Shown one piece after another: positions 9,532-54,150 of a stretch of DNA of 64,000 nucleotides. The position numbers and the translations under genes were made by a program. Within the stretch, counting starts at the first letter, position 1. Each line of letters starts with the position of its first letter. Source of the stretch: Candidatus Aquiluna sp. UB-MaderosW2red (GTDB lineage: Bacteria > Actinomycetota > Actinomycetes > Actinomycetales > Microbacteriaceae); assembly GCF_900100865.1 (NCBI RefSeq), contig NZ_LT627734.1, positions 124,001-188,000 of the forward strand, in the 5' to 3' direction. The notes beneath the pieces are model-generated. The model was not told the DNA's origin and searched no databases. It saw nothing but the letters and a program-made list of their open reading frames with translations.

Positions 9532-9561
9532 TTGGATTGTCTCCTCATCAGTCGCTTGCCG

Positions 9562-13325: not shown

Positions 13326-13568
13326 ATGGGAACGCTACGCGGAACCGCAAGAGATGCTGAGGGGCTTGGGTTGCTGTTGCAGCAGGGGCGCCTTGCAGCA
13401 GGGCTAACCCAGCGACAACTGGCTGACCAACTGAATGTCAGCCAGTCCTATATCTGGTCACTTGAGAGTGGCAAAGACGTGAAAGTTCTAGAGCGAATCT
13501 TTGCCGTCATGAGGGCCACTGGTGTGACTATGAGTCTTGAGGTTCCTGATGGCCAGCCTCAACGTTGA
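13326..13568 (+). CDS. hipB: HipB-type antitoxin, XRE helix-turn-helix
   Basis: An 80-residue XRE-family DNA-binding protein. The helix-turn-helix covers about residues 26-58 (GLTQRQLADQLNVSQSYIWS, then LESGKDVKVLERIF). The ATG follows GGAGGG at good distance. It overlaps hipA by 20 bases, the usual order antitoxin then kinase. It should neutralise HipA and repress the operon through the three GACTA-N8-TAGTC sites upstream. Confidence 0.88.
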   Translation: MGTLRGTARDAEGLGLLLQQGRLAAGLTQRQLADQLNVSQSYIWSLESGKDVKVLERIFAVMRATGVTMSLEVPDGQPQR

Positions 13569-35989: not shown

Positions 35990-36033
35990 GTGCGCTCCTT
36001 TAATGCCTTGTTGCGTATCAGATTAGCTGGGAA

Positions 36034-36065
36034 ACCTGCCCTCAAGATTGCTCTTGAGGGCAGGT
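36034..36065 (-). terminator. intra-operon hairpin after the ChvE-type gene
   Basis: ACCTGCCCTCAAGA (36034-36047) and TCTTGAGGGCAGGT (36052-36065) form a perfect 14-bp stem with a four-base loop, between the binding protein stop and the ATPase start. The T-tract after it on minus is short, so it may attenuate transcription or protect the upstream mRNA 3' end. Confidence 0.75.
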
Positions 36066-36089
36066 AACCGTTTACTACCTTGCTGCTAT

Positions 36090-37235
36090 TTAGCCTAGGT
36101 CTGCTTCTGCAATGTAGCCAGAGTCAACTAGAACCTCTTTGTAGTTGTCAATGGTGACAATGTAAGGGGTTAGTAGGAATGAAGGAACAACCTTCACGCC
36201 GTTGTCGTAGGTGGTGGTGTCGTTGGTCTCTGGCATTTCGCCATTTAGCAACGCAATCGCCATACCTGCAGCAACTCCGGCTAGCTCACGGGTGTCCTTG
36301 AAGATGGTCGAGTACTGCTCGCCAGCCAAGATTGACTTGACGGAAAGTACTTCTGCATCCTGACCGGAGATGGTTGGCATGGTCGCGTAACCCGCGTCGG
36401 TTAGAGCTGCGATGATGCCGCGGCTAATACCGTCGTAAGGTGACAAAACGCCGTCAACTTTTGCATCAGCGTAGTTACCAACCAAAAGGTCTTCCATACG
36501 CTTCTGAGCTACAGCGCCGTCCCAACGAAGGGTTGCGGCCTGCTCAATGGTGGTCTGGCCTGACTTGACTACTAGAACTCCCGAGTCAATTAGTGGCTGT
36601 AGAACGCTGATCGCACCGTTGAAGAAGAAGAATGCGTTGTTGTCGTCCAGTGAACCAGCAAATAGCTCAATGTTTAGGGGGCCTGCAGCGTTTGGACCGT
36701 CAGCTGAGGTGGAGTCTTCAGATGCGTAAACACCCATTCCAACTAGCAATGAGGTTGCCTGCTGAACGCCGACCTTGAAGTTGTCGAAGGTTGCGTAGTA
36801 GTCAACGTTCGCACTGCCAACAATTAGTCGGTCGTAAGCGATAACTGGAACGCCTGCATCGGCTGCTGCCTGAAGTACGTCAGTTAGCTGAGTACCGTCG
36901 ATAGCTGCAATGATTAGTGCCTTTGCACCCTTGGTTAGCATGGCCTCGAGCTGTGCTACCTGGGTTGGGATGTCGTCTTCTGCAAACTGAAGGTCAACCT
37001 CGAAGCCAGCGGCTTCCAAGGCGGACTTTACGTTTTCACCGTCTGAGATCCAGCGAGTTGAAGACTGAGTTGGCATCGAAACACCAATTAGTCCCGACTC
37101 AACAACTGCTTCTGTTCCGGTCGTTGCAGTTGTGTCAGTCCCAGTCGTGCTTGCGCAACCGCTTAGGACTAAAGCAGCTACAGCAACCGTGGCTGTAATG
37201 CCTAGTAGTTTCTTGAACAAATCTGTTCCTTTCAT
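36090..37235 (-). CDS. chvE: sugar-binding lipoprotein (ChvE/MmsE-like)
   Basis: A 381-residue periplasmic-type binding protein with the lipoprotein signal [57 protein letters not shown] and VIAYDRLI match the ChvE/xylose-arabinose family. The frame opens at 37382, but ~50 residues before the signal are non-family. ATG at 37235 or TTG at 37220 (AAAGGA six bases before it, giving [10 protein letters not shown]) are the real candidates. A LacI-type operator lies at 37368-37381. Confidence 0.88.
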
Positions 37236-37351
37236 TTTCGGTTGGACCCCCGAAGAATTTGGATCTGTATCGCGTCCAGCTCGCACAGATTGCTTCATGC
37301 CAACATTGCCTAAACAACTGGCTATGCGAGCAGTTCTATTGAAAGAAACCA

Positions 37352-37381
37352 TTAGCTGTAACCATTTTGTTACCGCTAACA
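37352..37381 (-). promoter_or_regulatory. LacI-type operator pair upstream of chvE
   Basis: TGTTACCGCTAACA (37368-37381) is a palindrome with arms TGTTA/TAACA around a CG-containing core, the usual LacI-family shape and close to arabinose regulator boxes (TGTTAGCG...TAACA). A second, weaker half-palindrome TTAGCTGTAA lies at 37352-37361. The LacI regulator of this operon is the natural ligand. Confidence 0.65.
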
Positions 37382-37502
37382 TCTTCTACCAACGCATTTC
37401 TACACCACATTTCGGTCTCTCGGGTTGATTTTTTGAATTCTGAGTGGTGTTTTTGATTACAAATCCATCACAAAATAACGCCCCTGCCACCCGAGCCCAA
37501 TG

Positions 37503-39095
37503 TTACTGGATGGATTTAATAGCTTGGGCCATCACCGGCAGTCCCATTCGGTAGTCGGTGAGGTAACGCTCAAACCCAGCAACCTCTTCGGGGTCTGCCA
37601 AAATCGTGACAACCTCTTGCTCACCAAAGACCCTGGTGTTCAAGAACTCGCTCAGGCTGGTCGCTGATGATCGAGAAAACGCTGCCAACAACGCCATGCC
37701 CCAAGGGCCACCCTCGGAAGCACTTTCAGAAACCGAAACCGGCGCCGAGATTGCAGCCGACAGAATTCTTTGAGCAACGCCCTTGGTTCTGAAGATGCCG
37801 CCGTGGGCGGACATCTTCGAGATCTGAACGTTCTCCTTGGCCAAGACCGCCATGCCCAAACTTAAGGTGCCAAATACCCCGTAGAGCTGGGCCAAAATTG
37901 CGTTTGCCAGGCTGAATTCGCTGTCGGGTTTGCGAATAAACAGCGGCCTGCCCTCTGAAAGACCAGCGATCGGCTCACCGGCGAGATAGTTGTAAGCCAA
38001 AAGGCCGCCAGCGTCTTTTTGACCGCTCAGGGCCTCTTCGAATAAGAGCTCGTAAACCTCATCAGAGCTCAAGGGGTTTCCCGAAACTTTAGCGAAGCGG
38101 CTAAACATTCTCACCCAGGCCGCAAGCTCACTGGCTCCGTTATTGCAGTGCACCATTGCAACCGGGTCGCCAACCGGAGTGGCGACAATGTCGAGTTCGT
38201 GGTGGACCTTGGTTAGTTCCCGATCCATCACCACCATTGCAAAGATACTGGTGCCGGCGCTCACGTTTCCAGTGGTTGGAGCCACTGCATTGGTGGCAAC
38301 CATGCCCGAACCGGCATCTCCCTCGGGAGGGCAAAACAAAACCCCGGCTTTTAGCGATCCGCTTGGATCAAGCAGCTTCGCCCCAGCCTGCGTCAGCGAA
38401 CCGGCACTCTCGCCAGCCACTGAGACTTCGGGTAAAAGACTCAATAGATTGCCTCGCAGAACCCTGGAGGTCTCCAGTGCATCAAAGACTGCTAGCAACT
38501 TTGCGTCGTAGGACTTATTGGCTGAGTCGATTGGGAACATCCCCGAAGCATCGCCAATGCCCAGCACTTTATTACCGGTGAGCATCCAGTGCACGTAGCC
38601 GGCCAGCGTGGTTATGAAGCTGATGTGTGGAACGTGCTCGGATTTGTCCAATACGGCCTGCTGCAGGTGAGCAACAGACCAGCGCAGCGGAATGTTCACA
38701 CCGAAAAGGTCGGTGAGCTCTTTTGCGGCTTGCGAGGTAGTGGTGTTTCGCCAGGTTCTAAAAGGAACCAGTAGCTGGTCTTTTTCATCAAAAGCCAAAT
38801 AGCCGTGCATCATTGCCGAAACGCCAATGGCGTTCAGGCTTTGAAGTTTGATGCCGTATTGCTCTTCGACATTGTGCTGCAAGTCTTTTATGGTGGCGGC
38901 TAACCCCTGCCAGATGGAATCTACTGAGTAGGTCCAATAGCCATCCCCGAGCTGGTTCTCCCAATCATGGGTTCCAGTGGCCAATATCTGGTTCAGGTCT
39001 TCGCCGATCAGGGTTGCCTTGATTCTGGTTGACCCAAGCTCAATGCCTAGGGTAGCTTTGCCGGCATCGATTAGTTTTTTGATTGATTCAGTCAT
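37503..39095 (-). CDS. FGGY-family carbohydrate kinase, likely L-ribulokinase
   Basis: A 530-residue two-domain FGGY kinase. LGIELGSTRIKATLI is the N-terminal phosphate motif, and NVSAGTSIFAMVV with EGDAGSGMVATNA the second-half ATP motifs; KMSAHGGIFRTKGV is the C-terminal signature. Between araD and the transporter it most likely phosphorylates L-ribulose, although it is not the long AraB form of enterobacteria and xylulose is possible. Its ATG overlaps the araD stop by four bases. Confidence 0.85.
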   Translation of the reverse strand: MTESIKKLIDAGKATLGIELGSTRIKATLIGEDLNQILATGTHDWENQLGDGYWTYSVDSIWQGLAATIKDLQHNVEEQYGIKLQSLNAIGVSAMMHGYLAFDEKDQLLVPFRTWRNTTTSQAAKELTDLFGVNIPLRWSVAHLQQAVLDKSEHVPHISFITTLAGYVHWMLTGNKVLGIGDASGMFPIDSANKSYDAKLLAVFDALETSRVLRGNLLSLLPEVSVAGESAGSLTQAGAKLLDPSGSLKAGVLFCPPEGDAGSGMVATNAVAPTTGNVSAGTSIFAMVVMDRELTKVHHELDIVATPVGDPVAMVHCNNGASELAAWVRMFSRFAKVSGNPLSSDEVYELLFEEALSGQKDAGGLLAYNYLAGEPIAGLSEGRPLFIRKPDSEFSLANAILAQLYGVFGTLSLGMAVLAKENVQISKMSAHGGIFRTKGVAQRILSAAISAPVSVSESASEGGPWGMALLAAFSRSSATSLSEFLNTRVFGEQEVVTILADPEEVAGFERYLTDYRMGLPVMAQAIKSIQ

Positions 39096-39793
39096 CGCCT
39101 AGCATCCTCCGATTGTCCATAAACATTTTGGTAGCGAAGGTAAAGCGAATCGATTGCCGCTTGCTCAAGAGGCACAAGCGCGCCACCCTGTCTTGCAATT
39201 TCAACCGTTCGAGCTGCGTCCTCACACATCACCGCAGCCTTGACTGCATCCTTGGGGTTTATACCGATAGTGAAGGGGCCGTGGTTTTTCATTAGCACCG
39301 CTCTGGAGCGGTGGGTTTTTAGGGTCGCAACTATTCCCCGGCCGATTGAGTCATCGCCAACGATCGCAAATGGGCCAATCGGAATGGGGCCGCCAAACTC
39401 ATCGGCCATGCCGGTTATCACACACGGAATCTCTTCCCCACGAGCCGCCCAAGCGGTTGCATATGTTGAGTGGGTGTGGACCACGCCACCAACTTCTGGC
39501 ATGTTGCGATAGACATAGGCGTGGGCGGCGGTGTCGCTGGATGGAGACCTTTCGCTACCCAGGGTTCCTTGCAGAACCGAACCATCCAAGGTGCACAGAA
39601 CCATGTTTTCTGGGGTTAGGTCATCGTAGGAAACACCAGACGGCTTAATCACAAAAAGGTCATGGCCCGGGACGCGACCCGAGATATTTCCCCCGGTCCA
39701 AATCACCAAACCGTAGCGGGTGAGTTCTGAGTGCAAGTCCGAAACCTGCTGGCGCATTGCTTGCACTTCCGCAACTAAATCAAACTCATGCAT
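39092..39793 (-). CDS. araD: L-ribulose-5-phosphate 4-epimerase
   Basis: A 233-residue class II aldolase/epimerase-fold enzyme. WTGGNISGRVPG and VVHTHSTYATAWAA carry the substrate and zinc-binding residues (His-Thr-His), and VLMKNHGPFTIG the third metal His. It converts L-ribulose-5-phosphate to D-xylulose-5-phosphate, the entry to the pentose phosphate pathway. It sits between the LacI regulator and the kinase. Confidence 0.94.
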   Translation of the reverse strand: MHEFDLVAEVQAMRQQVSDLHSELTRYGLVIWTGGNISGRVPGHDLFVIKPSGVSYDDLTPENMVLCTLDGSVLQGTLGSERSPSSDTAAHAYVYRNMPEVGGVVHTHSTYATAWAARGEEIPCVITGMADEFGGPIPIGPFAIVGDDSIGRGIVATLKTHRSRAVLMKNHGPFTIGINPKDAVKAAVMCEDAARTVEIARQGGALVPLEQAAIDSLYLRYQNVYGQSEDARR

Positions 39794-39823
39794 GCTGCGT
39801 CTCCTTTTGATTTTCCAATGCCG

Positions 39824-40837
39824 CTACCTTGGGGCCGGCCCGGTTGAGTCCCTGATCACTAAATTCGGTACCAGTCTGTCGAGCTTTCTAACAGACTTTC
39901 CGGAAATCTCGTCAAGTAGCAATTCCATCGCCCTTAGCCCCAGCTCTTTGAAGTCTTGTCTGAGAGTGGTAAGCGGTGGCCAGGTGTATTGGGTTTCTTC
40001 TAGGTCATCAAAGCCCACGATGCTCACCCTTTTCGGAACCTCAACCCCGCGCTCTCGCATGGCATGCAAAAAACCAATCGCCATGCGGTCATTGGCGATA
40101 AAAAGGCCCGTGATTCCCCTGGCCTCCAGATCTAGCGCATGACCAATGCGATACCCGGTCGAAAGCTCCCAGTCCCCCTCGATGATCATTGGACTTAGTC
40201 CAGCGTTGAGCATTGAAGAGGTGTAGCCGGCGGACCTGGTGGTTGACTCAAACCAGTTCTTTGGGCCGGAAATATGCAGAATGTTTTGGTGACCGAGCTC
40301 GATTAGGTGCTCGGTGGCAGAGACTCCTCCGGAAAAGTTATCCACCGAAACCGCTAACTCATCCATTCGATACATCGAATCCAGCGTGACAACCGGGATG
40401 CCAGCCACCATTTTGCGCACTGCTTCCACCGCCTCCGCCTGCGGAGTGATGACCGCCATGCCCTCGATGCCAAGCTTCATGAGATGCTCTATACCCTCAT
40501 TGACCGAAGCCTCAAGGTTCGGGTCGATGCGGCAGGTCACCACGTAGAAGCCCTGCGCCCGAGCGGCAACCTCCATAAAATGCACCATCGACGCTGGCCC
40601 GGTGAAGTCAGTATCAGAGGCCAAAATGCCGAGCATGTGCGTTTTAGAAGAGGCCAGTGCCCTGGCGGCAAGGTTTGGCCGATAGCCCAGATTTTCCATG
40701 GCCTCCAAAACCCGCGACTTGGTTTCTTCTCGGATCGAAGGATTGTTGTTTAGCACCCTCGAGACGGTTTGGTGAGACACTTTTGCGACCCGTGCAACGT
40801 CGTAAATGTTGGGCTGCTTAGACAGGCTATCCACCAA
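39824..40837 (-). CDS. LacI-family regulator of the arabinose operon
   Basis: A 337-residue LacI/GalR regulator: N-terminal HTH and hinge (IYDVARVAKVSHQTVSRVLN, NLGYRPNLAARALAS), then a periplasmic-binding-like sensor (MLGILASDTDFTGPASMVHF, GLFIANDRMAIGFLHAM, IVGFDDLEETQYTWPPLTT). The TTG at 40837 has AAGGAG five bases upstream; GTG follows one codon later. It should repress the operon until arabinose or a derivative binds, acting at the TGTTACCGCTAACA site. Confidence 0.92.
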   Translation of the reverse strand: MVDSLSKQPNIYDVARVAKVSHQTVSRVLNNNPSIREETKSRVLEAMENLGYRPNLAARALASSKTHMLGILASDTDFTGPASMVHFMEVAARAQGFYVVTCRIDPNLEASVNEGIEHLMKLGIEGMAVITPQAEAVEAVRKMVAGIPVVTLDSMYRMDELAVSVDNFSGGVSATEHLIELGHQNILHISGPKNWFESTTRSAGYTSSMLNAGLSPMIIEGDWELSTGYRIGHALDLEARGITGLFIANDRMAIGFLHAMRERGVEVPKRVSIVGFDDLEETQYTWPPLTTLRQDFKELGLRAMELLLDEISGKSVRKLDRLVPNLVIRDSTGPAPR

Positions 40838-41255
40838 GGGTGCTCCTTAGCCGAACAGTAATTTCGTCAATTTCGGCATTGAAAGACTTCACCTGGTTTG
40901 GCAATAGCGCCAACCGAAACTTCATTCTCACCTTAGATTCCTTTTTGCCCGCAGCGATTTTGATATCTATTTCGCCGAGCGACTCGGTCACTAGGACGAC
41001 TCTTTTGGGCAGGGTGATCATCGAATAGCTTGCGCCATATTCCAAGTCCTTGGATTTGTACTTGAGCTTGGCCCCGGTTTGAAAATCAAACTTATAAAAC
41101 TCTCCCAGCCAGCCATCCAAACCAAACTTAGTAATAAAGGGTGCCAAAAGGCCTGCAAGCTCAAGATTGGAGGAAAGTTCTAATTCGCGCTCAGTCACTG
41201 TCTTTTTTGGATCTGGCTTTGGTGACTGGGCGAAGCCGACAAAGTTGTCGGTCAT
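40827..41255 (-). CDS. hypothetical, possibly START/SRPBCC-like
   Basis: A 142-residue soluble protein, no certain family. After a polar ~25-residue start, a beta-rich region (FDFQTGAKLKYKSKDLEYGA, ITLPKRVVLVTESLG, IDIKIAAGKKESKVRMKF) and a C-terminal helix resemble the outline of a START-like lipid/ligand fold. It overlaps both neighbours by 4-11 bases, so it is translated with the arabinose operon, though its job there is unknown. Confidence 0.6.
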   Translation of the reverse strand: MTDNFVGFAQSPKPDPKKTVTERELELSSNLELAGLLAPFITKFGLDGWLGEFYKFDFQTGAKLKYKSKDLEYGASYSMITLPKRVVLVTESLGEIDIKIAAGKKESKVRMKFRLALLPNQVKSFNAEIDEITVRLRSTLGG

Positions 41256-41617
41256 TTCTTTGTGCGTTCTCTAGCTGCGAAGGTGTAGGCCGCCACCCCA
41301 AACAAAATGGCAATTGCCGCGTGGGCCATAAACATCAGAACCGTGAAGCTGGTGAATGGGTCGCCCCCAAGAAGCGGGTTCAGCCACAACAGCGCAACTG
41401 GAATAAAGAAAAACCCGAACCAGGCCCTAGACTGTATGGCCAAAAAGACCATCCAGGCCGAACCACCCAGGGCAAAAAGGGTCATGTAGAGCGGGTAACT
41501 ATCGCCAACTTGGATAAAGGTTTGGCTCGCTAAAAAAAACGCAAGAACAACCGCGACCCAACTCGGGGCCGGGTCCTTTGGTCTTTTACCAAAGAGAGTC
41601 CAATTCGCTTTTTCCAC
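41252..41617 (-). CDS. small integral membrane protein, hypothetical
   Basis: A 121-residue protein with four hydrophobic segments (WVAVVLAFFLASQTF, LYMTLFALGGSAWMVFLAI, WFGFFFIPVALLWLNPL, VLMFMAHAAIAILFGVAAY) and a basic C-terminus. No family recognised. It lies 27 bases after araA and overlaps the next gene by four bases, so it is part of the arabinose transcription unit. Confidence 0.65.
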   Translation of the reverse strand: MEKANWTLFGKRPKDPAPSWVAVVLAFFLASQTFIQVGDSYPLYMTLFALGGSAWMVFLAIQSRAWFGFFFIPVALLWLNPLLGGDPFTSFTVLMFMAHAAIAILFGVAAYTFAARERTKK

Positions 41618-41644
41618 AGCTAAACCCTACCTAGAAGCCCGCGA

Positions 41645-43162
41645 CTAAACGTTTCTATTAACCAAGCGGTGGTAGGCGCTGGACCACTGCAGCTCTTTGC
41701 GCAAACCCTTGGAGGTAGTGCTCGAATCGATCTCCACCAATTCAACACCGGCAATCCTGGCAAAGTCTTCCAGGGTCTCTTGGCTGACCGAGTTGGTCAA
41801 GACGGTGTGGTGTGAACCACCAGCGAGCATCCAAGCTTCGGCAGAAACTGCCAAGGATGGCTCTGGCTCCCAGACCGCCCTGGCAACCGGAAGCTTTGGT
41901 AGATCCTGAGTCGGCTCCACGATCTTAATCTCGTTTGTGATTAGGCGGAAACGAGCACCCATGTCGGTTAGGCAAAGCACCCTGCCGGCTGAGGGCTTGG
42001 CGGTGAAGACCATGCGCACCGGATCCTCTTTGCCGCCAATGCCAAGCGGGTGGATCTCGATCTTGGGCTTTTGTCCCGAGATGCTCGGGCAAACCTCGAG
42101 CATGTGAGCGCCAAGGACCTTGGGGGTCCCTGGACCAAAGTGGTAGGTGTAGTCCTCCATGAATGAGGTGCCGCCACCTTGCGGTGTCATCGACTTGGTG
42201 ATTGCTAATAGGGCGGCGGTTTTCCAGTCGCCCTCGCCAGCAAAGCCATAGCCATCAGCCATCAGGCGCTGAACTGCAAGCCCTGGCAATTGGCGCAAAG
42301 TGCCAAGATCCTCGAAGTTTGAAGTGAAGGCGGAATAGCCACCCTGTTCAAGAATCGCCCGCAGGGCTATCTCGATCTTGGCGCTGTATTGCAAAGACTC
42401 ATGCCTAGCCCCACCGAGACAAAGCTCGGCTGCGACCTCGTACTCGGCCTGATACACCTCACAAAGTTTGTTGGCATCGGCATCACTAACTCCGAGCACG
42501 GCATCGGCCAGTGCATTCACGCTCAATTGCTCGATTGACATACCAAAGGTAATTTGCGCGGCAACCTTGTCACCGTCGGTCACTGCCACGTATCTCATGT
42601 TGTCGCCAAAGCGAGCCACCTTCAAATGCTGAGATTTATCCCAACCGAGAGAGGCCCAAGCCCAGGAATCAACTTCCTGCTGAACTCTTGCATCGGTTGG
42701 AAAACCAACCACAACCTTGCGAGCGATGTCCATGCGGCTCAGGATGTGGGCATACTCTCGATCACCATGAGCAGCCTGGTTGAGATTCATAAAGTCCATG
42801 TCGATTGTTGCCCAAGGGAGGGACTGTCCAGCCTGGGTGTGCAAATGCAACAGCGGTTTTTTGAGGGAATCCAGCCCATTAATCCACATCTTGGCCGGAG
42901 AAAAGGTGTGCATCCAAGTTATGACGCCGACACACTCGGGGGCCAAGGTGGCCCCTTGAAGCGCAGCCTTAATCTCTTCGGTGGTTTTTACCACCGGCTT
43001 CCAGACAATTTTGAGAGGTGCGTTCACGCCGGTGGATAACTGATCCACCACCACCTGAGACTGCTCAGCAACCTGGCGAAGTGTTTCTTCGCCGTAGAGG
43101 TTCTGGCTTCCGGTTAGGAACCAGATTTCCTTGGGTGCTGCGGCCATGTTTGATTCCTTCAT
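41645..43162 (-). CDS. araA: L-arabinose isomerase
   Basis: A 505-residue isomerase with the family opening EIWFLTGSQNLYGEETL, GVITWMHTFSPAKMWI, and metal-site regions GYGFAGEGDWKTAALLA and SFMEDYTYHFGPG. It converts L-arabinose to L-ribulose. Two starts are well served: ATG 43162 (AGGAG eight bases before) and ATG 43147 (AAGGA seven bases before). It is the first gene of the long minus-strand arabinose operon. Confidence 0.96.
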   Translation of the reverse strand: MKESNMAAAPKEIWFLTGSQNLYGEETLRQVAEQSQVVVDQLSTGVNAPLKIVWKPVVKTTEEIKAALQGATLAPECVGVITWMHTFSPAKMWINGLDSLKKPLLHLHTQAGQSLPWATIDMDFMNLNQAAHGDREYAHILSRMDIARKVVVGFPTDARVQQEVDSWAWASLGWDKSQHLKVARFGDNMRYVAVTDGDKVAAQITFGMSIEQLSVNALADAVLGVSDADANKLCEVYQAEYEVAAELCLGGARHESLQYSAKIEIALRAILEQGGYSAFTSNFEDLGTLRQLPGLAVQRLMADGYGFAGEGDWKTAALLAITKSMTPQGGGTSFMEDYTYHFGPGTPKVLGAHMLEVCPSISGQKPKIEIHPLGIGGKEDPVRMVFTAKPSAGRVLCLTDMGARFRLITNEIKIVEPTQDLPKLPVARAVWEPEPSLAVSAEAWMLAGGSHHTVLTNSVSQETLEDFARIAGVELVEIDSSTTSKGLRKELQWSSAYHRLVNRNV

Positions 43163-44215: not shown

Positions 44216-44302
44216 CAGATCTCCTACTTGGTTTGTCTTCCCTCAGGGTAAATCATTTGATTGCACTCTAGGGCTATCTTTGCCTATTGGTTCTTTGGGG
44301 GG

Positions 44303-44350
44303 AGACACCACAACTCTTTGGAAGCTCACGCTCATGGGGTTGTGGTGTCT
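44303..44350 (-). terminator. hairpin directly after the GH51 remnant
   Basis: AGACACCACAAC (44303-44314) and GTTGTGGTGTCT (44339-44350) are a perfect 12-bp inverted repeat with a 24-base loop, starting seven bases beyond the GH51 fragment stop on the minus strand. No T-run follows. It is probably the old end of the arabinofuranosidase transcript. Confidence 0.55.
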
Positions 44351-44357
44351 AAATCAG

Positions 44358-44642
44358 CTACCCAAAAGCGATAGCAGTCCAGGAAACTGGCTGTAGTTCG
44401 ATGTGAAGGACACCGGCCACAATTTTTGCCGAGGAGTTCTGCTGCATTCCCACTCTTTCAGGGTCCGCCAGCGTGTTTGCTGCATTCACGTCTGAATCAA
44501 AAAGACTCTCTGCGCTTAGACGAGCTAAGCCCTCCAGGTCACGAAGACCAATTGATACAGAGAGCGTCTCCGTTTGGGAGCGATTCACCAGGAAGATTGA
44601 ACCGGTCCCAGCTTGCTCATCAAAACTTGCCGCTGCATCTGC
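44358..44642 (-). pseudogene. abfA: GH51 alpha-L-arabinofuranosidase C-terminal fragment, copy A
   Basis: The minus strand encodes, without breaks, the last ~94 residues of an actinobacterial GH51 enzyme: AAASFDEQAGTGSIFLVNRS, then SVSIGLRDLEGLARL, FDSDVNAANTLADPERVG and ELQPVSWTAIAFG. Upstream the frame meets a stop exactly where the AraC gene ends (44643), so the catalytic domain is missing. It marks the left junction of the inserted alpha-galactoside cluster. A related fragment on the same strand lies on the other side at 50354. Confidence 0.78.
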
Positions 44643-45512
44643 TCAGCGATGGAGGGCTCGGTACTCGCCTGGCGAGGAATCGCAGATCCTCATGAAGTGC
44701 GCGTAAAAGCTACTCTGCGACCCAAAGCCCGCCGTGGGTGAGATTTCGCTAGTGCTGAGCGTTGTGGTTACCAAGAGGCGTTGCGCCTCCGAGACCCGGC
44801 AGCCAGTAATGAATCGGCCGATTGTTGTCCCGACTGCACGTCGAAATAACGACATGGCGTAATGGCTGTTGAGATGAACAGAGTCGGCCACATCGGCAGT
44901 GGTGATCGGCTCACGAAAGTGCGCGACTATAAATTGAGCCATCGCGGTCACTCGCTGCATCGAATCTGAAGCTCCGGATCCCGCTAGGGTTAGAGCTGAA
45001 ACCTGCTCGGTAGATCTTCGGCGATACCCGAGTAATCGTCGCACGAGAGCGTGTACCTCGATGAGTGCGATTGTCTCGTAGTTCTCGTCCTCCAGCTCCT
45101 GCATCCAGCTCATGAACATCGATTCGACATCCCGACCGGCCGCTCCGGCGGGCACGATCACTGGGCTGCCTTGAAGCAGGTCGTTGAGATCTTGGGTTGA
45201 GAGCCCCCAGCGGAGTACGGTACTCAATGGAACGTGGAGCCAGCAGCTGTCACTATCCTCCTCGAGAGAGGACTCAATTAGGCGATGAGGGGTCGCACCC
45301 CAGAACATCGCGAGGTGCCCGGCCGGAACTTGGATGCGTTCGCCCCCGAAGAGGTAATCGAGACAGCCGCGAAGTACGAAGTTGAACTCAAGATCATCGT
45401 GTCGATGCGAGCGCGCCATCCTAGGCGCCTGTCCGCGACGAGTCCAGATGGCTGGAACGAGGGTATCTACGAAAGAAGGCCCCTCAGACGGACCACTCGC
45501 AGTAATAGTCAT
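44643..45512 (-). CDS. AraC-family regulator of the alpha-galactoside cluster
   Basis: A 289-residue AraC/XylS protein. The N-terminal cupin has RSHRHDDLEFNFVLRGCLDY and AMFWGATPHRLI; the C-terminal double HTH includes EPITTADVADSVHLNSHYAM and RLLVTTTLSTSEISPTAGFG, then SSFYAHFMRICDSSPGEYR. It is divergent from the GH4 gene and should activate it in response to melibiose or raffinose-type sugars (MelR/RafR role). It shares the higher G+C of the cluster. Its stop abuts the GH51 fragment. Confidence 0.92.
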   Translation of the reverse strand: MTITASGPSEGPSFVDTLVPAIWTRRGQAPRMARSHRHDDLEFNFVLRGCLDYLFGGERIQVPAGHLAMFWGATPHRLIESSLEEDSDSCWLHVPLSTVLRWGLSTQDLNDLLQGSPVIVPAGAAGRDVESMFMSWMQELEDENYETIALIEVHALVRRLLGYRRRSTEQVSALTLAGSGASDSMQRVTAMAQFIVAHFREPITTADVADSVHLNSHYAMSLFRRAVGTTIGRFITGCRVSEAQRLLVTTTLSTSEISPTAGFGSQSSFYAHFMRICDSSPGEYRALHR

Positions 45513-45603
45513 TCCTCCACCCTAGCAGGCGACCTGAGTATCCTGGAGTAAATACAGCTCAAGACGGAGGTTCCGAACCATCGCCCATCAGTATGTTCTG
45601 AAT

Positions 45604-46986
45604 ATGTATTCTAAAACTCGACCTCCAAAAATCACCATCATCGGCGCTGGAGGCTTTGTCTTCCCCTTCCGCCTCATCGGCGATCTCGTTAGCTTTCCGG
45701 CGCTCCAGTCGAGCACCTTGTGCTTGATGGATCTGGATCCAGAGCGCGCCGCTCGCACAGCCAAGGCGGCGCGGGAGCTTATCGGACATCACGGGCTCGA
45801 CACCACTATCATCGAAACGACCGACCGCCGTGAGGCCCTCCGGGATGCCGACTTCGTCATCATCACATTCCAGGTCGGGGGAATCGACTCCTATCGCCAC
45901 GACGTCGAGATCCCCCGCAAGTACGGTGTTGACCAGACCGTCGGGGACACGGTCGGCCCGGGCGGGGTATTCCGGTTCCTACGCTCCGTCCCGGCGTATG
46001 AGGCCATTGCCGAAGATGCGCTTGAACTCTGCCCGAATGCGCAGTTCATCAACTACGCCAACCCGATGGCGATGGCCACTGGGTTCCTCAACGCCAAGGG
46101 GCTCTCAACTATCGGCCTTTGCCACAGCGTGCAAGGCACCACACGGATGCTCGCGAGAACTCTCGACGTCCCATACAGCGAGCTCAACTACGTGTGCGCC
46201 GGAATCAACCACCAGGCGTGGATCCTCAGATTCGAGAGCGGAAAAGAGGACCTCTACCCACGACTGCGCGAGGTTATGTCTGAACTTCACCAGCGTGGAC
46301 GCGCGGCGACTGACCTAAATGATGATGACGGCGACCACAGTGAAGCGGCTGATGCATCGAGCAACTACGAGGGTGGGAACGAGCAGGTCCGGACGACCAT
46401 CATGAACTCGTTCGGCTACTTTCAGACGGAATCCAGCCATCACGCCTCCGAATATATGCCCTACTTCCGCAAGGACCCGGAGACGGTGCTGGAGTACATA
46501 CCCGAGCGCTGGGACTACTACGAAATCTGCGTCGCACACGATGTGACGGGCGACTTGGAGCAACAGCTTGAAAAGCTCAAGGCCAACCTTGAGCCGTCGG
46601 TCGAGTACGGGGCAAGCATTATCAACTCCGTCGTTACTGGCGTGCCGAGCGTCGTCTACGGAAACGTTCCCAACGACGGTCTCATTTCAAACCTTCCACC
46701 GGAGGCCTGTGTGGAAGTTCCGTGCCTCATCGACCGAAATGGGGTGCAACCGGTCGCCATCGGGGCGCTCCCACCCCAGCTCGCGGCACTCAATCTATCT
46801 AACATCAGCCTGCAGACTCTGGCCGTCGAAGCTGCACTGACTGGGAATAGGGAGCAGGTTTTTCACGCGGTCGCCATGGACCCCCTCACGAGTGCGATTC
46901 TCACGCTGGACGACATCCAATTGATGACCGAGGAGCTCTTCGAGGCTCACAAGGCATTGCTGCCGCCGGCACTGACCGCACGATAA
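45604..46986 (+). CDS. GH4 alpha-galactosidase (melibiase type)
   Basis: A 460-residue NAD+- and Mn2+-dependent family 4 glycosidase. ITIIGAGGFVFPFRLIGDL is the dinucleotide fold, INYANPMAMATG and GLCHSVQGT hold the metal Cys, and CAGINHQAWIL the metal His. The family removes terminal hexoses by an oxidation-elimination route. Next to an AraC regulator and a sugar ABC importer, melibiose/raffinose-type alpha-galactosides are the likely substrates; alpha-glucoside or galacturonate specificity exists in the family. No clear Shine-Dalgarno precedes the ATG. Confidence 0.9.
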   Translation: MYSKTRPPKITIIGAGGFVFPFRLIGDLVSFPALQSSTLCLMDLDPERAARTAKAARELIGHHGLDTTIIETTDRREALRDADFVIITFQVGGIDSYRHDVEIPRKYGVDQTVGDTVGPGGVFRFLRSVPAYEAIAEDALELCPNAQFINYANPMAMATGFLNAKGLSTIGLCHSVQGTTRMLARTLDVPYSELNYVCAGINHQAWILRFESGKEDLYPRLREVMSELHQRGRAATDLNDDDGDHSEAADASSNYEGGNEQVRTTIMNSFGYFQTESSHHASEYMPYFRKDPETVLEYIPERWDYYEICVAHDVTGDLEQQLEKLKANLEPSVEYGASIINSVVTGVPSVVYGNVPNDGLISNLPPEACVEVPCLIDRNGVQPVAIGALPPQLAALNLSNISLQTLAVEAALTGNREQVFHAVAMDPLTSAILTLDDIQLMTEELFEAHKALLPPALTAR

Positions 46987-47164
46987 CGCGAGAGAAGCCG
47001 CGGATCGTGGCACTAGCCACCCTCCGACGGAACGGCGCAAAATCGAACAACGGATGACAAAGGAGTCACTTTGGAAAAATGAGCGCGCTACATGAGAGCC
47101 TAGGGAATAAGAATTAATCTCTTACCTCACTGGGCGAATATCTGATCAATGACGAGGAGATAAA

Positions 47165-48487
47165 ATGAAAATGAAAATGAGACGAATTGCAACCGTTGCC
47201 GCAGTGACTATGACGAGCGCGATCTTGCTCGCGGGTTGCTCTGCGGCAAATCCCAATACGGGCAGTGATGACGCTGAGGTGGTCTGGAACGAACCAACGG
47301 CGAGCCTTGAAGGGGTCACGCTCGATTTTTGGACAGCGACGACAGCCGCGTCCTTGGCCGACCAGGTTATAGACGCCTTCGAGAAAGCAACTGGCGCGAA
47401 AATCAACGTGATTATTGTCCCGGATATCTATGAAACCAACGCCCCCACGCGCATCGCCACAGGCGCCATTCCAGATCTGGCGATGTGGCAGCCGACCGCA
47501 AGCATGCTTGCGTTGCTAAAACCGGAGAGCGGACTCCAGAACTTTGACGAGGCGCCGTGGATCGACTCGTTGACTCCCGCCGTGCAGGAGCTGGGCAAGG
47601 TTGATGGCACTCGGTACGCCGCCTTTGTGAGCTCGCCATCCGTCATCGGCATGTATTACAACAAGAAAGTGTTCGCGGAAGCTGGAATTGATGAGTTGCC
47701 TGACAGCTTTGAAGAGCTAATGAAGGACGCGGATGCAATTAAGGCTTTAGGTATTGCGCCGTTCTTCGGAGCAGTCGGAGACCAGTGGCCGACCCAGTGG
47801 TGGCCGCAGGTGCTGCTCGCCGAAGAGGTGCAGGACGGACTGTGGGACCGGGTGAATGCCAATGAAGAAGGCTTCGACGATGAGACGATCCAGGCAGCCA
47901 TCCAGCAGTACAAGGACATGCTTGACGACGGTTACTTTAACGATGACAATCTGACCTCCACTTTTAGCGAATCCGGCCCAGCATTGCTCTCAGGCGAAGC
48001 CGCCATGGTATTGCAGGTGAACCCTTTTATCTCCCTGCTGCAGGCGAGTGCCGACACTGCCACCATCGATAAGAACATCGGCTGGTTCCCGATCTCGCGC
48101 GACGGGAACGTCGGGATATCCATTCCCGGCGTAGAGAACGCGGTCGTTGCTCCGAAGACCGGCGACGCGAAGAAAGAAGCGGCTGCCCGTCAGTTCATCC
48201 GCTTTTGGCTCGAGACGGGCTACGCGGCTTACATCGAAGATGCCGGCGCCATTTCGATTCAGCCCAACGTTGAATCGCCGACCGGTGTGCCGGCAATCGC
48301 CCAGCTCGCCGCCGACGCTCTCACCAACTCCGCCGGCTCCATGCAGCAGGAAGCTGTAGCCAACCCCGACCTCTATGTCTTCCTAGCCAACATGGCCCAA
48401 GGAGAGATGACGCCTCTCGAGGTGGGGAAATCGACCCAGTCGCAGTTCGCGCAAGTCGCTGCGGCCCTCGGCATCGACGGCTTCTAG
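47165..48487 (+). CDS. sugar-binding lipoprotein of the alpha-galactoside importer
   Basis: A 440-residue family 1 binding protein. Lipoprotein signal RRIATVAAVTMTSAILLAGC; LDFWTATTAASLADQVIDAF, YYNKKVFAEAGIDELPDSFE and AMVLQVNPFISLLQ fit type I sugar binders. The ATG follows GAGGAG by four to five bases. It is followed by a strong hairpin and two permease genes. No ATPase gene accompanies it. Confidence 0.92.
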   Translation: MKMKMRRIATVAAVTMTSAILLAGCSAANPNTGSDDAEVVWNEPTASLEGVTLDFWTATTAASLADQVIDAFEKATGAKINVIIVPDIYETNAPTRIATGAIPDLAMWQPTASMLALLKPESGLQNFDEAPWIDSLTPAVQELGKVDGTRYAAFVSSPSVIGMYYNKKVFAEAGIDELPDSFEELMKDADAIKALGIAPFFGAVGDQWPTQWWPQVLLAEEVQDGLWDRVNANEEGFDDETIQAAIQQYKDMLDDGYFNDDNLTSTFSESGPALLSGEAAMVLQVNPFISLLQASADTATIDKNIGWFPISRDGNVGISIPGVENAVVAPKTGDAKKEAAARQFIRFWLETGYAAYIEDAGAISIQPNVESPTGVPAIAQLAADALTNSAGSMQQEAVANPDLYVFLANMAQGEMTPLEVGKSTQSQFAQVAAALGIDGF

Positions 48488-48501
48488 CACCAGACAATCG
48501 A

Positions 48502-48541
48502 CCAGGACGGAGTGAGTCTTTGATGGCTCGCTCCGTCCTGG
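48502..48541 (+). terminator. intra-operon hairpin after the binding-protein gene
   Basis: CCAGGACGGAGTGAG (48502-48516) pairs with CTCGCTCCGTCCTGG (48527-48541), 15 bp with one G-T pair, 14 bases after the stop. No T-run follows, so it may act mainly as an mRNA 3' end protector between binding protein and permease. Confidence 0.7.
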
Positions 48542-48560
48542 CACCATGGAAAGGACCATC

Positions 48561-49484
48561 GTGGCGAAACTCATCGCCGTTCCCAACACCCGGCGGACTG
48601 GGAAGAGCTCGGGCAAGCGTGCCGAGAGGTCCCACCCGATAGCCTTCCTGCTTCCTGCGTTTGTTGTGCTCGTGCTGTTCTTCTTCCTGCCGACCATCTT
48701 CAACTTCGTGTATGCCTTCACCGACTGGTCGGCGTTCAAAAGCGACGTCGCCTTCGTCGGTACTAAGAATTTTGAGTCGCTCATCGCGGACGGCACGTTG
48801 TCCTCGGCTGTGCGCGTTACCCTGATTTACGCGGCCCTTGTCGGAATCATGCAGAATCTGTTCGGTCTCGGTCTCGCCCTTATGTTTGAGCGAGACACAC
48901 GAGTCAACCGGTTCGGTCGGGTGATTTTCTTCATACCAGTGCTCATGTCCGCACTCGCCGTTGGATACATCTTCCAGGCGTTGCTCAAACCCAACGGTGC
49001 ATTGAACGGCATCTTGAGTTTCTTCAGCGGCCATGAGATTGATATCCCTTGGCTTGGCGACACCACGTGGAGCATTGTCGTTGTGGCGTTTGTCAACTCC
49101 TGGAAATGGGCTGGCCTCGCTATGATCATCTATCTCGCTGGCCTCAAGACGATCTCCGAAGACGTTCTTGAAGCGGCACGCATGGATGGTGCAGGGCCAT
49201 GGAAGACGTTCTTCTCGATTAAATTCCCGTTGCTCGCGCCAGCCGTGACCTTTAACTTTGCGACGGCGCTGCTCGGATCGCTCAACGCATTCGACACCGT
49301 TCTAGCGACAACTGAAGGCGGGCCAGCGCAAACCACCGAAGTCGTGAATCTCTACATTTTCAGGGTCTTTGGCCAGGGCTTGTTCGCCCAAGCGACGACG
49401 ATGAGCCTCGTCTTGTTTTTCATCGTGCTCATCCTCGCGTTCCCGATTGTGACCTGGCTGCGAAGAAGGGAGCGCGTAATTTGA
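48561..49484 (+). CDS. sugar ABC permease, MalF/UgpA type
   Basis: A 307-residue permease with six membrane helices (first IAFLLPAFVVLVLFFFLPTI) and the EAA loop VLEAARMDGAGPWKTFFSI. The GTG at 48561 has AAAGGA five bases upstream and is preferred over ATG 48546. It shares four bases with the next permease gene. Works with the GH4-linked binding protein. Confidence 0.92.
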   Translation: MAKLIAVPNTRRTGKSSGKRAERSHPIAFLLPAFVVLVLFFFLPTIFNFVYAFTDWSAFKSDVAFVGTKNFESLIADGTLSSAVRVTLIYAALVGIMQNLFGLGLALMFERDTRVNRFGRVIFFIPVLMSALAVGYIFQALLKPNGALNGILSFFSGHEIDIPWLGDTTWSIVVVAFVNSWKWAGLAMIIYLAGLKTISEDVLEAARMDGAGPWKTFFSIKFPLLAPAVTFNFATALLGSLNAFDTVLATTEGGPAQTTEVVNLYIFRVFGQGLFAQATTMSLVLFFIVLILAFPIVTWLRRRERVI

Positions 49485-50317
49485 AAAATCGCACTCACGC
49501 CTGGACGCGTTACGGGCATCCGACCGCAGTTTTGTTGTTGTGCTTAGTCGCGGTCGGCCTGCCGGTATGGCTCGCTCTTGTCACTTCAGCAAAGTCGCAA
49601 AGCGATGCCAACATTCCGAATCTTTCTCTACCAACCGAGTGGTATTTACTCGAGAACTATGCTCAGGCCTTCAGCCAAGGAGAGGTCTGGGAGGGTCTGT
49701 TTGGTAGCTTGCTCGTTATGGTGCCTTCCGTTATTGGCGTGATTCTGTTTGGATCGCTTGCATCGTGGATTCTTGCCCGACGAACCAGCCGCTGGGTGGC
49801 AATCGCGTACTCAGTTGCGATCAGCGGGGTCATCCTGCCGCCGGCGATCGTGACAGTTGTGCTCTTGCTTCGTCAACTGGGTCTCGCTGGCACGCCTGGC
49901 GGCATGATCATGGTTTACATGGGCATGTACATGTCGATCGTGATCTTTTTCATGACGGGCTTTGTGCGAACAATCCCCGTGGAATTGGAGGAGGCAGCAC
50001 GCATAGATGGCGCAGGTCCGTTCCGCACCTTCTTCCAAGTGATCTTCCCTTTATTGAAGCCTGTTATCGCGACCGCGACGATTCTCGTGTGTCTCTACAT
50101 TTGGAACGACGTCTTCTATTCATTCTTTGTAATTAGCGGCGGAGATACGACGACGCTCCAGCTGAACCTCTTTCAAGTAGCAAGCAGTAATCTGTATCAA
50201 AACAACTGGAATTTGATTTTCGCTTATGTGGTGATTTCGAGTCTTCCATTGTTGATTGTCTTCATCTTCGCCCAGAGGCGAGTTATCTCTGGAATCACTG
50301 GTGGCGCCGTCAAGTAG
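49481..50317 (+). CDS. sugar ABC permease, MalG/UgpE type
   Basis: A 278-residue permease with six helices and EAA loop LEEAARIDGAGPFRTFFQVI. It starts at TTG (49481), overlapping the stop of the previous gene (TTTGA) with GGGAG about seven bases before. It is the last gene of the inserted cluster; 36 bases after its stop a GH51 remnant begins on the other strand. Confidence 0.9.
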   Translation: MKNRTHAWTRYGHPTAVLLLCLVAVGLPVWLALVTSAKSQSDANIPNLSLPTEWYLLENYAQAFSQGEVWEGLFGSLLVMVPSVIGVILFGSLASWILARRTSRWVAIAYSVAISGVILPPAIVTVVLLLRQLGLAGTPGGMIMVYMGMYMSIVIFFMTGFVRTIPVELEEAARIDGAGPFRTFFQVIFPLLKPVIATATILVCLYIWNDVFYSFFVISGGDTTTLQLNLFQVASSNLYQNNWNLIFAYVVISSLPLLIVFIFAQRRVISGITGGAVK

Positions 50318-50353
50318 GACGGATTCAATTGGCCGTCGCAAACAATCGCGGGG

Positions 50354-50790
50354 TCAGAGTGCACTACCAAGAGCTACTGCAGTCCAAGACACCGGAGGTA
50401 AATTGATCTGCAGATCACTTTCAACTCGAATTACAGAGGCATTTTGCTTCATCCCAACCCGTTCAGGGTCGGAAAGGGTGGTTGCTCCTTGAGTGTCCGA
50501 ATCGAATAGGTTCTCTGCACTAATTAGACTGAAGCCCTCCAGGTCAGGAAGACCAATTGATAAAAAAGAGTCTCCGCTTGGGAGCCCTTTAGTCGTTGAC
50601 AAGCGCGATGAGATTTAGAGTAGGGGGAGGATGGCCTGCAGCAAAGAAGCTCCAGCTGGTCTGGTAATAATTAGGATAACGACGCTTACGAGTTGTGCCA
50701 GGGACTCACTAGTGCCTCGGGCTGGGTGTTGGAGCAACGAGCCAAAAATGACCGCTTCGGCGACACCGTAGAAATCCTTAAGGAGCCGTG
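50354..50790 (-). pseudogene. abfA: decayed GH51 alpha-L-arabinofuranosidase, copy B
   Basis: The minus strand shows GH51 pieces in order: APRLL-like SPRLLKDFYGVAEAVIFGSL, SLAQLVSVVILIITRPAG, then an in-frame TAA, a deletion, and the C-terminus SIGLPDLEGFSLISAENLFD, TLSDPERVGMKQNAS and PPVSWTAVALG. A normal enzyme has about 500 residues; only the last ~150 positions can be traced. It is related to copy A across the inserted cluster and on the same strand. Certainly non-functional. Confidence 0.75.
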
Positions 50791-50799
50791 GGGATTTTT

Positions 50800-51503
50800 G
50801 ACTAATTTCCTAACAACTGATTGACCACACATTGCAAAAACACAGATTCGTGTCATGATGTCAAGTTCTGAGCACTGTCCTGGGTTCTTATTTTGAGATT
50901 GGAATTGCTGAATTTCCAGCTTTTTGCCAAGGGGCAGAAAGTAGTGAGCAATGAGAAATTTGGGCGGAAACATTGAAGATGGTCCCGCAAATGTCGTGGC
51001 CCAAGAGATCCCAGGGGGTATCTCAGAAGCTCTTCTAATAAATTGAGCCAAAATTAACCAGACATGGGTAAAGAACTAAATCTGTGATTTATTCGCCAAA
51101 ACCAACCCTTATGAAATAACTGCCCAAAACAATTCCCTTGAGGAGTTGGCCCCGGGAGTTGGAGGAAACCTGACTGGGCAAGGTGGCGTTGCCGGATCCT
51201 GGCTTGATCGACTCCCCCGCTTCAGACTTGAAGCCACGCCAAGTGCTGGGAGTGAGATTTAGAATCTGTTTCGAAAGCAGTGAATTTATTCGAGGGGGCC
51301 CTTGCCCTGTTTGAACCAATTCCACACTGGGGTAGGGTTCACCACTTTGATCAAGAGCAGCCTGCAATCAGTCACCCAAAGCACGTTCAGGCTCGAGCCG
51401 TCTTCGATTCGCTGGACCCAGCCGGCAAATTCAGCAGTGAATACCTCCGAAGCTTAGAGTTCAGGAGATAACTAAGTTCGCTGCCTGTTTTGCAGCGCCT
51501 AGC
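50800..51503. other. degenerate region between GH51 and xylA remnants
   Basis: About 700 bases with stops in all frames at short intervals on both strands. Two open frames of 90-120 codons on minus have no recognisable family or ribosome site. Judged by its neighbours it is probably eroded remains of the GH51 5' part and the xylA 3' part, but I could not align it by eye. Confidence 0.4.
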
Positions 51504-51901
51504 GCCCCCCCACATCACAAAGGTTTCTGCTTTCATTTGAGCGGCCAGGTCGATGTTGCGAAGCACTTTGCGCAGCGCAAAGAGTCTGACATCACGGTCA
51601 TTGCTGGTGAAACCGCCGTCTTTGAATACCCGGTGGGAGAACAAATTTGTGGTTATCGTCGGCACTTTCATGCCGGTCTCTTCGCAAGAGCCGGTGAGTC
51701 TCGCTATTTGAAGGTCGCGGGATTTATCATCCGCGTCGAGTGGGAAAAGATCGTCATCATGAAAAGTCTGGCCGTAGGCACCGCCTCGACCACATCTAGT
51801 TCGCCCCTGGTCGGTGATCCAAACGGATCAGCCCCGGTCCATCCAACAGTCCAGAGACCAAATGTGAATTTGTCCTTAGCTGTCGCCTCGTAATTGCCCA
51901 T
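51504..51901 (-). pseudogene. xylA: xylose isomerase remnant
   Basis: The start is intact: AAAGGAG, ATG at 51901, then [19 protein letters not shown], the N-terminus of actinobacterial XylA. After GELDVVEA a small deletion shifts the frame; [19 protein letters not shown] follows, then [40 protein letters not shown] and VMWGG, where homology ends. About two thirds of the enzyme, with most metal ligands, is missing. It cannot work. Confidence 0.85.
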
Positions 51902-51993
51902 GATCACTCCTTTGGAAAAAGAATTGAGTTTGTTTTTCTTTCCTGAATCGTAGTTTCAATTTTTGGGTCCAATCAATCCGCGTCAGCAGGCTT

Positions 51994-52848
51994 TTAGATG
52001 TTTCTTACTCCCCAGACGTAGCTGAAACTTTCACCTGGCGAAAGCACCTTTAGTCCGGCTCCAGTGTTGAAGGCGTCAGCTGCGCAGGTTTGAGGCTCTA
52101 TGGCAACCGCACGCACCCGACCATCAGCCCAATTAAATGATTCGGTCGTATAAACCATGAGCCAATCAGCTCGCTTTTGCCAAACCTCAATGCTGAAGTC
52201 TTGAGTCCTCAAAACAGCCGCTCCCTCAGCGATACCAGAAAACTGCAGATCTAGCGGAAGAGACTCTATTGGGGTGCGGATTCCCTCACCAAAACCAAGC
52301 TCGGTTGCGGGCACTTCTTTCAATGGAATCATGTCCGGGCCGTGAATTGCTCCGGCTTTGGCACGGACCTCAAGTGTCGATGTTGAATCAAAAACAAAGA
52401 ACGGGTGAGTACCTAGTCCAATAGGCGCCGAGCCTTGTCCAGTGTTGGTCGCTACTGTTTCCACCTCAAGACCAGCTTCAGAAATAGAAAAGGTGATCTG
52501 CACCTCTAGATTCCAAGGAAAACTAGGTCTAGGCTCCACAGCGCTGACGAGGGTCAGCCGGTCAGTTTCCTGAGATAGAACATTGGCTGGTAAATCAAAC
52601 AACAATCCGTGAAGGGCATTGCCAAGGGGCTCATTGATCTTTGCCTGATATTCGACACCTTCAAATGTGTAAGCCCCGCCCGCGATTCGATTAGGCCACG
52701 GGGCTAGCATTACCCCGTGGTAGGGGTGTGGTTATGCCGCGGGTTCTGGAATTACAGAATGGCTCACTAAAACTAGCGACCGAAGTGCAGAACCAGCAAT
52801 GTTTATGGTCGCACTGGAGCTACCGGCAGATATCTTGAAGCTTTCCAT
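51994..52848 (-). pseudogene. galM: aldose 1-epimerase interrupted by one stop codon
   Basis: The frame runs from ATG 52848 (MESFKISAGSSSATINIAG) to 51994 and is open except for a TAA at 52734-52732, just before PHPYHGVMLAPWPNRIAGG. Downstream residues are well kept: NALHGLLFD has the catalytic-type His, GLGTHPFFVF the second His, and AIEPQTCAADAFN the Glu. The full length of about 284 residues is normal for galactose mutarotase. A restart at ATG 52710 would give 238 residues lacking the first strands. A recent nonsense mutation is likely; sequencing error is possible. Confidence 0.8.
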
Positions 52849-53106: not shown

Positions 53107-54150
53107 CTAGATAGTGGCCGCATCAATCACAAAGCGATACTTAACATCACTGCCAACAACGCGCTCATAGGCCGCGTCGATGGCAGCAGGGTCTGTGGCA
53201 TCGACCATCTCGATGATTGAAACGATGTTGTGCTCGCCACAAAAATCAAGCATCTCTTGGGTGCCGTGAATACTGCCGGTGTTTGCACCTGCGATTGACT
53301 TCAAGCCAGTCACAAGACTGAATGGGTTATAGCTCTGGTCTGTGCCCGGCAAACCAACGTTCACCAAAGAACCGCCAACCATCAGCATTGCCAAAAGGGC
53401 ATCGACATCTAGGTCGGCACTGGTGGTATTCAGGATGATGTCGAAGAAGTCTTTGTGGGTTTCCATGGCGTCCACGGTGATCAGATACTCAAGAGCGCCC
53501 ATGTCCTTGGCATCCTGCGCCTTATTTGGTGAGTGGCCAAGGACGTAGGTCTCGGCCCCCATTGCAACGGCAAACTTCACTGCCATATGACCCAGACCAC
53601 CGAGGCCCAAGATTGCGACCTTCATGCCCGGTCCGGCTTTCCAGTGCTTCAAGGGCTCGTAAACGGTGACACCGGCGCATAAAAGTGGTGCTGAGGCTGC
53701 AAAATCGATGTTGGTTGGCACTTTTAGAACAAAGTGTTCTTTCACAACGATGTCCTTGGCATATCCACCGTAGGCGACTTCACCGTCGTAGTGCTTGCCG
53801 TTATATGTCTGGGTATTGCCGGTCCGGCAATAGTTCTCCCTGCCCGCGATACACGGGTAACAGGTGCCGCAAGAATCCACAAAGGTTCCAACGCCAACTC
53901 GGTCGCCCACCTTGAACTTGGTTACTGCCGAGCCAACCTCGGTCACCTCACCAACAATCTCGTGACCCGGCACCATTGGGAAGATGCCCTCTGACCATTC
54001 ATCGCGCACCTGGTGGATATCGGAGTGGCAAATACCGGAAAACTTGATGCTGATCGCCACGCGATCGGGAGCCATTGCCCTCAGTGGCATATCGCCCTTT
54101 TCAAATTTTGCTGAAGGGGTCTTAGAAATAAGCGAACGGGTATTTGGCAT
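53107..54150 (-). CDS. zinc-dependent NAD(P) alcohol dehydrogenase
   Basis: A 347-residue medium-chain dehydrogenase of the cinnamyl-alcohol/YahK type. GICHSDIHQVRDEW and PGHEIVGEVTEVG bear catalytic zinc ligands; VDSCGTCYPCIAGRENYC has the four structural-zinc cysteines; AILGLGGLGHMAVKFA is the cofactor fold. It probably reduces a range of aldehydes. It stands alone, with its own terminator; the start has GGAG a few bases upstream. Confidence 0.94.
   Translation of the reverse strand: MPNTRSLISKTPSAKFEKGDMPLRAMAPDRVAISIKFSGICHSDIHQVRDEWSEGIFPMVPGHEIVGEVTEVGSAVTKFKVGDRVGVGTFVDSCGTCYPCIAGRENYCRTGNTQTYNGKHYDGEVAYGGYAKDIVVKEHFVLKVPTNIDFAASAPLLCAGVTVYEPLKHWKAGPGMKVAILGLGGLGHMAVKFAVAMGAETYVLGHSPNKAQDAKDMGALEYLITVDAMETHKDFFDIILNTTSADLDVDALLAMLMVGGSLVNVGLPGTDQSYNPFSLVTGLKSIAGANTGSIHGTQEMLDFCGEHNIVSIIEMVDATDPAAIDAAYERVVGSDVKYRFVIDAATI

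Follow-up and report, generated by a model that had tools for sequence, protein, structure and literature searches.

A probable mosaic alpha-galactoside cluster between two GH51 remnants in Candidatus Aquiluna sp. UB-MaderosW2red

The window, that is, the whole stretch of 64,000 nucleotides analyzed here (G000:C1:124001–188000), belongs to a complete-looking Microbacteriaceae genome of 1.66 Mb. At 44643–50317 it carries an alpha-galactoside cluster of five genes, all intact, which a preliminary description had rightly recognized as richer in G+C than its surroundings: the genes have 56–59% G+C (the second permease gene 52%), as against 47–55% for the neighbours. The first, melR (44643–45512, complement strand), specifies an AraC/MelR-type regulator; its match to the MelR model NF007693 (1e-43) reaches 149.4 bits, below the cut-off of 253 bits, and the product is therefore MelR-like only. 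Next comes a gene for a GH4 alpha-galactosidase (45604–46986, forward strand), in which both GH4 domains (PF02056 and PF11975) were found and which scores 553.7 bits, above the cut-off of 486, with NF011657 (PRK15076). Its product displays NHQAW, the metal-binding NH motif, at residue 202, and CHSV, the motif of MelA-type GH4 enzymes, at residue 173. The remaining genes, all on the forward strand, encode the substrate-binding lipoprotein of an ABC sugar importer (47165–48487; PF01547; 66% amino acid identity to the homolog beside GH36 in genome G104), permease 1 (48546–49484; PF00528; 78–80% to G104 and G134) and permease 2 (49481–50317; PF00528; 78–83% to G134 and G104). A 15-bp near-perfect hairpin lies between the binding protein and permease 1 genes (48502–48541), a site which is usual for an mRNA-stabilising or attenuating stem.

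The dN/dS ratio relative to related genes is roughly 0.06–0.17 across the five genes (about 0.06 for GH4 and 0.11 for melR against Microbacteriaceae bacterium LF-bin-143), which indicates purifying selection. The cluster has no ATPase gene; a UgpC/MsiK-type ATPase gene, scoring above its cut-off, is located at 721 kb, and a galactokinase gene is also present in the genome. Because the genes are intact and under selection, the GH4 score and motifs are as described, and an ATPase and a galactokinase are available, a pathway of alpha-galactoside import, intracellular hydrolysis and galactose use is plausible from the sequence. The main argument for the substrate is that both halves of the cluster (see below) come from alpha-galactoside systems. 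The binding protein and permeases would import melibiose- or raffinose-type sugars, with energy from a shared ATPase whose gene lies elsewhere, presumably that at 721 kb. The cytoplasmic GH4 enzyme, of an NAD+/Mn2+-dependent class, is predicted to release galactose, which would enter metabolism through galactokinase, while the MelR-type regulator would switch the cluster genes on.

On both sides the cluster is bordered by fragments of GH51 genes lying on the same (complement) strand. The left remnant (44358–44639) comprises the last 93 or so codons, with a frame open up to the junction just as first described, and not one stop or frameshift occurs in these 93 codons, unlike the neighbours. It was identified by PF06964 (3e-6, above the Pfam cut-off), by the ArfA model NF051901 (positions 411–500 of 502) and by a purpose-built GH51 HMM (2e-28). 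It starts at about residue 414, the first 410 or so codons of the gene being gone. Just 3' of its stop codon, at 44293–44357, a 12-base perfect inverted repeat (AGACACCACAAC / GTTGTGGTGTCT) is possibly an old terminator.

The right remnant is a pseudogene, as had been claimed, though longer than first described: tblastx, tblastn and the HMM (2e-25) place it at 50354–50797, corresponding to residues 319–505 or so of a full GH51. The 3' end and stop codon are kept and the 5' two-thirds are missing. It has one in-frame stop (50615–50617), a deletion of about 40 codons and a smaller deletion, so that deletion and nonsense, more than frameshift, account for its decay. Both remnants belong to ArfA-type GH51 by their C-terminal domain (PF06964 and the end of NF051901), the left one by the Pfam cut-off, the right one by profile and tblastx. 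The catalytic TIM barrel is absent, since the left remnant begins at about residue 414 and the right at about 319, and a search of the whole genome revealed no third GH51 piece and no other GH51 C-terminal domain.

The two remnants are, as the preliminary description had it, similar without being identical (70% DNA identity over 219 bp). Across 65 aligned codons dS is 1.32 and dN 0.25, so that most of the divergence arose while both copies were functional and under purifying selection. When both were compared with GH51 genes of relatives in a FastTree analysis including 47 other GH51 C-termini, they came out as sisters (support 0.978), with the longer branch leading to the right one; this tree was built on 94 columns only, with one of the sequences decaying. 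Within the limits of so short an alignment, their sister relationship would fit an old tandem duplication. No tandem pair of one subfamily was present among 16 GH51 loci of relatives, one of which (in G049) carries a divergent pair.

Comparison with 22 genus-mates, whose genomes do not exceed about 1.5 Mb, puts these remnants in a wider setting. In most of them the genes for an aldo/keto reductase (PF00248; 43265–44215 of the window, complement strand) and an alcohol dehydrogenase (53107–54150, complement strand) are adjacent, with a gap of 10–50 bp; in the window, where they mark the ancestral left and right edges of the site, respectively, they are 8.9 kb apart. Given this adjacency, the whole interval is foreign to the locus. 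It contains, besides the intact cluster and both GH51 remnants, two further genes. The 5' part of a xylose isomerase gene (xylA; 51390–51955, complement strand) is frameshifted and matches positions 1–39 and 45–141 of the 382 in TIGR02631, as well as a purpose-built HMM. The aldose epimerase gene galM (PF01263; 51994–52842, complement strand) is probably a pseudogene, judging from an in-frame TAA (52732–52734) across which a tblastn alignment runs in a single frame. Between the xylA and GH51 remnants some 590 bp (50800–51390) hold no GH51 or xylA coding remains by HMM, and about 575 bp of this stretch (50815–51390) show no traces of coding sequence that could be recognised. No GH51 of the family of the remnants exists in any of the 22 genus-mates, and the intact gene for which cluster-free strains had been proposed as a source was thus not found among them. 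GH4 is likewise missing from all 22, and xylA is intact in only two, at other places. These distributions indicate that an older pentose set arrived here and decayed, and that the cluster is the intact part of the interval.

In genus-mates G001 and G009 the gap between the two flanking genes is about 720 bp and contains what by eye is a VapBC-like antitoxin/PIN-toxin pair (L095:8938–9557 and L101:10440–11016, respectively), which suggests that the gap is a recurrent insertion site. Adjoining the site, the window carries a complete arabinose set (33204–43162; transporter, araB, araD, LacI-type regulator and araA); among the genus-mates compared, this block stands beside the aldo/keto reductase gene only in G009 and, as far as its contig reaches, in G015. 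Farther away, large genes resembling a methyltransferase/helicase restriction system and an SNF2-like helicase (3000–12450) form, by eye only, a probable defence island, and a gene for a HipA-like kinase (13537–14769) has by eye no obvious partner.

That the cluster is of foreign origin, as already proposed, is supported by the absence of GH4 from the genus-mates and by the occurrence of the closest GH4 (89% amino acid identity) in another genus. By origin it consists of two units rather than one: melR with GH4, and the binding protein with the permeases. The melR–GH4 block shows 78% DNA identity to LF-bin-143, a member of the same family, across 44630 to 47084. This regulator lies near GH4 in 44 of 46 GH4 loci surveyed (in the other two a contig end truncates the GH4 gene), and the transporter of the window in none. 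In the closest clade (LF-bin-143, Cryobacterium sp. RYN_54 and C. lactosi) the genes after GH4 encode permease A, permease B and a binding protein, in that order. The transporter proteins of the window are instead 65–83% identical in amino acid sequence to those of G104 and G134; of 18 loci with a transporter of this type, 16 also have a GH36 alpha-galactosidase and a LacI regulator, and none has GH4 or GH51. The parts therefore differ both in closest relatives and in usual partners, as those of a mosaic operon do, and their combination was seen at no other locus surveyed. Sequence relationships thus identify the cluster as a chimera of melR–GH4 from a clade near Cryobacterium and a transporter from a GH36-linked system.

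Three seams can be read at the locus. Between the GH4 and transporter halves (47083–47140), homology to LF-bin-143 ends near 47085 and similarity to the G104 leader 5' of the binding protein gene resumes at about 47130–47160. Immediately before this break, at 47050–47082 on the forward strand, alignment with LF-bin-143 and C. lactosi discloses the fossil ribosome-binding site and start of a lost permease A (CAACGGATGACAAAGGAGTCACTTTGG vs CAACGGTAGACAAAGGAGTCACTGTGG in C. lactosi). Permease A begins at this point in both relatives; in the window the start reads TTG GAA AAA TGA, with a stop after three codons. A functional hybrid of two non-homologous alpha-galactoside systems, MelR–GH4 and a GH36-type importer, may have been formed in place, the transporter being exchanged directly behind the start codon of the old permease; we would give this proposal an even chance of being correct.

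At the left seam (44636–44639) the LF-bin-143 and GH51 alignments run together. Homology to LF-bin-143 extends about 10 bp beyond the melR stop codon as TGAGC(A/G)GATG and then breaks, and the GH51 alignments begin at the Asp codon GAT (about codon 414) within the same GATG. Joining over these four shared bases, which can also arise by chance, points to end joining or some other process that needs no long homology. At the right seam (50318–50353), which does not match the G104 or G134 flanks, permease 2 is followed after 36 bp by the stop codon of the right GH51 gene, which ends normally. What follows permease 2 is thus the stop of the other copy and not the beginning of the left gene, so that either DNA was replaced or a deletion followed.

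We consider it probable that a chimeric alpha-galactoside cluster replaced DNA between two GH51 copies at a site where carbohydrate genes have been turned over. Older pentose genes (galM, xylA and a tandem pair of GH51 genes) would have reached the site between the alcohol dehydrogenase and aldo/keto reductase genes and then decayed. The cluster, through recombination without long homology, may subsequently have replaced the DNA extending from the 3' flank of the right GH51 gene through about codon 413 of the left copy, and each copy would then keep only its 3' end. The argument for replacement is that neither gene is split: the left is without its first 410 or so codons, the right without its 5' two-thirds. 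Since no strain was found that has two intact GH51 genes in tandem here, we infer the earlier tandem order, and likewise the order of events, from the remnants; the left gene could have lost its 5' part only after the insertion.

The preliminary description had offered insertion into one of two GH51 paralogues. The existence of two copies holds, the fragments being sisters. A clean insertion into one of them, with later deletions removing its 5' part on the far side, is on the whole unlikely, even though the left reading frame stays open to the very seam, as a recent cut would leave it, and the copies are related as this would lead one to expect. No 5' part of that gene occurs next to permease 2 or anywhere else in the genome, and a second deletion would have to end in the 36 bp between permease 2 and the right copy, whose 3' end is intact. 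With the other half of the gene missing, we reject clean insertion as the simplest reading.

The other proposal was arrival with a donor copy: a cluster carrying its own GH51 3' fragment would recombine into a resident GH51 and so duplicate the 3' end on both sides. Two direct 3' ends flanking the insert are indeed the geometry of integration by a single crossover. We regard this origin as very doubtful, as GH51 was found near none of the 46 GH4 and none of the 18 transporter loci, the GC3 of the left fragment (0.47) differs from that of the cluster genes (0.62–0.73), and 70% identity is low for homologous exchange. A donor-borne GH51 is rejected on the ground that no donor-like locus has one beside it. 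Settlement of the cluster by an already decayed GH51 pair, with the melR fusion a later chance deletion unrelated to the insertion, would suit an interval decaying throughout (galM, xylA and the right GH51 gene) but is equally improbable in view of the undamaged left fragment. A transposon or integrative element was rejected, there being no end repeats, no tRNA in the window and no integrase-like open frame in the interval by eye.

In the preferred reading, replacement between two GH51 copies, one hydrolase system was lost where another was gained. Both mosaic operon formation and decay of older genes are already known, and as an instance of horizontal transfer and gene turnover the locus is ordinary, if well preserved; the particular combination is new to the loci surveyed. 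As the GH51/melR, GH4/transporter and permease/GH51 seams are all still readable, the build-up of a working catabolic module from two systems can be traced in one locus of a small-genome lineage.

Among known systems, the MelR/MelA-type operons of Microbacteriaceae (LF-bin-143 and C. lactosi) share with the window a divergent AraC-family regulator and GH4 (76% and 89% amino acid identity, respectively, to LF-bin-143) and the same intergenic remains 3' of GH4. They keep permease A, permease B and the binding protein, of which the window has lost all but the start. The LacI–GH36–binding protein–permease clusters of G104 and G134, in contrast, possess the same type of transporter in the same gene order, but where they have GH36 and LacI the window has GH4 and a MelR-type regulator. 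Mosaic operons such as those for phenylacetate, reportedly formed via horizontal transfer and gene displacement, are likewise functional modules made from parts of different origin; compared with these, the present locus still shows a legible residue of the displaced gene at the seam.
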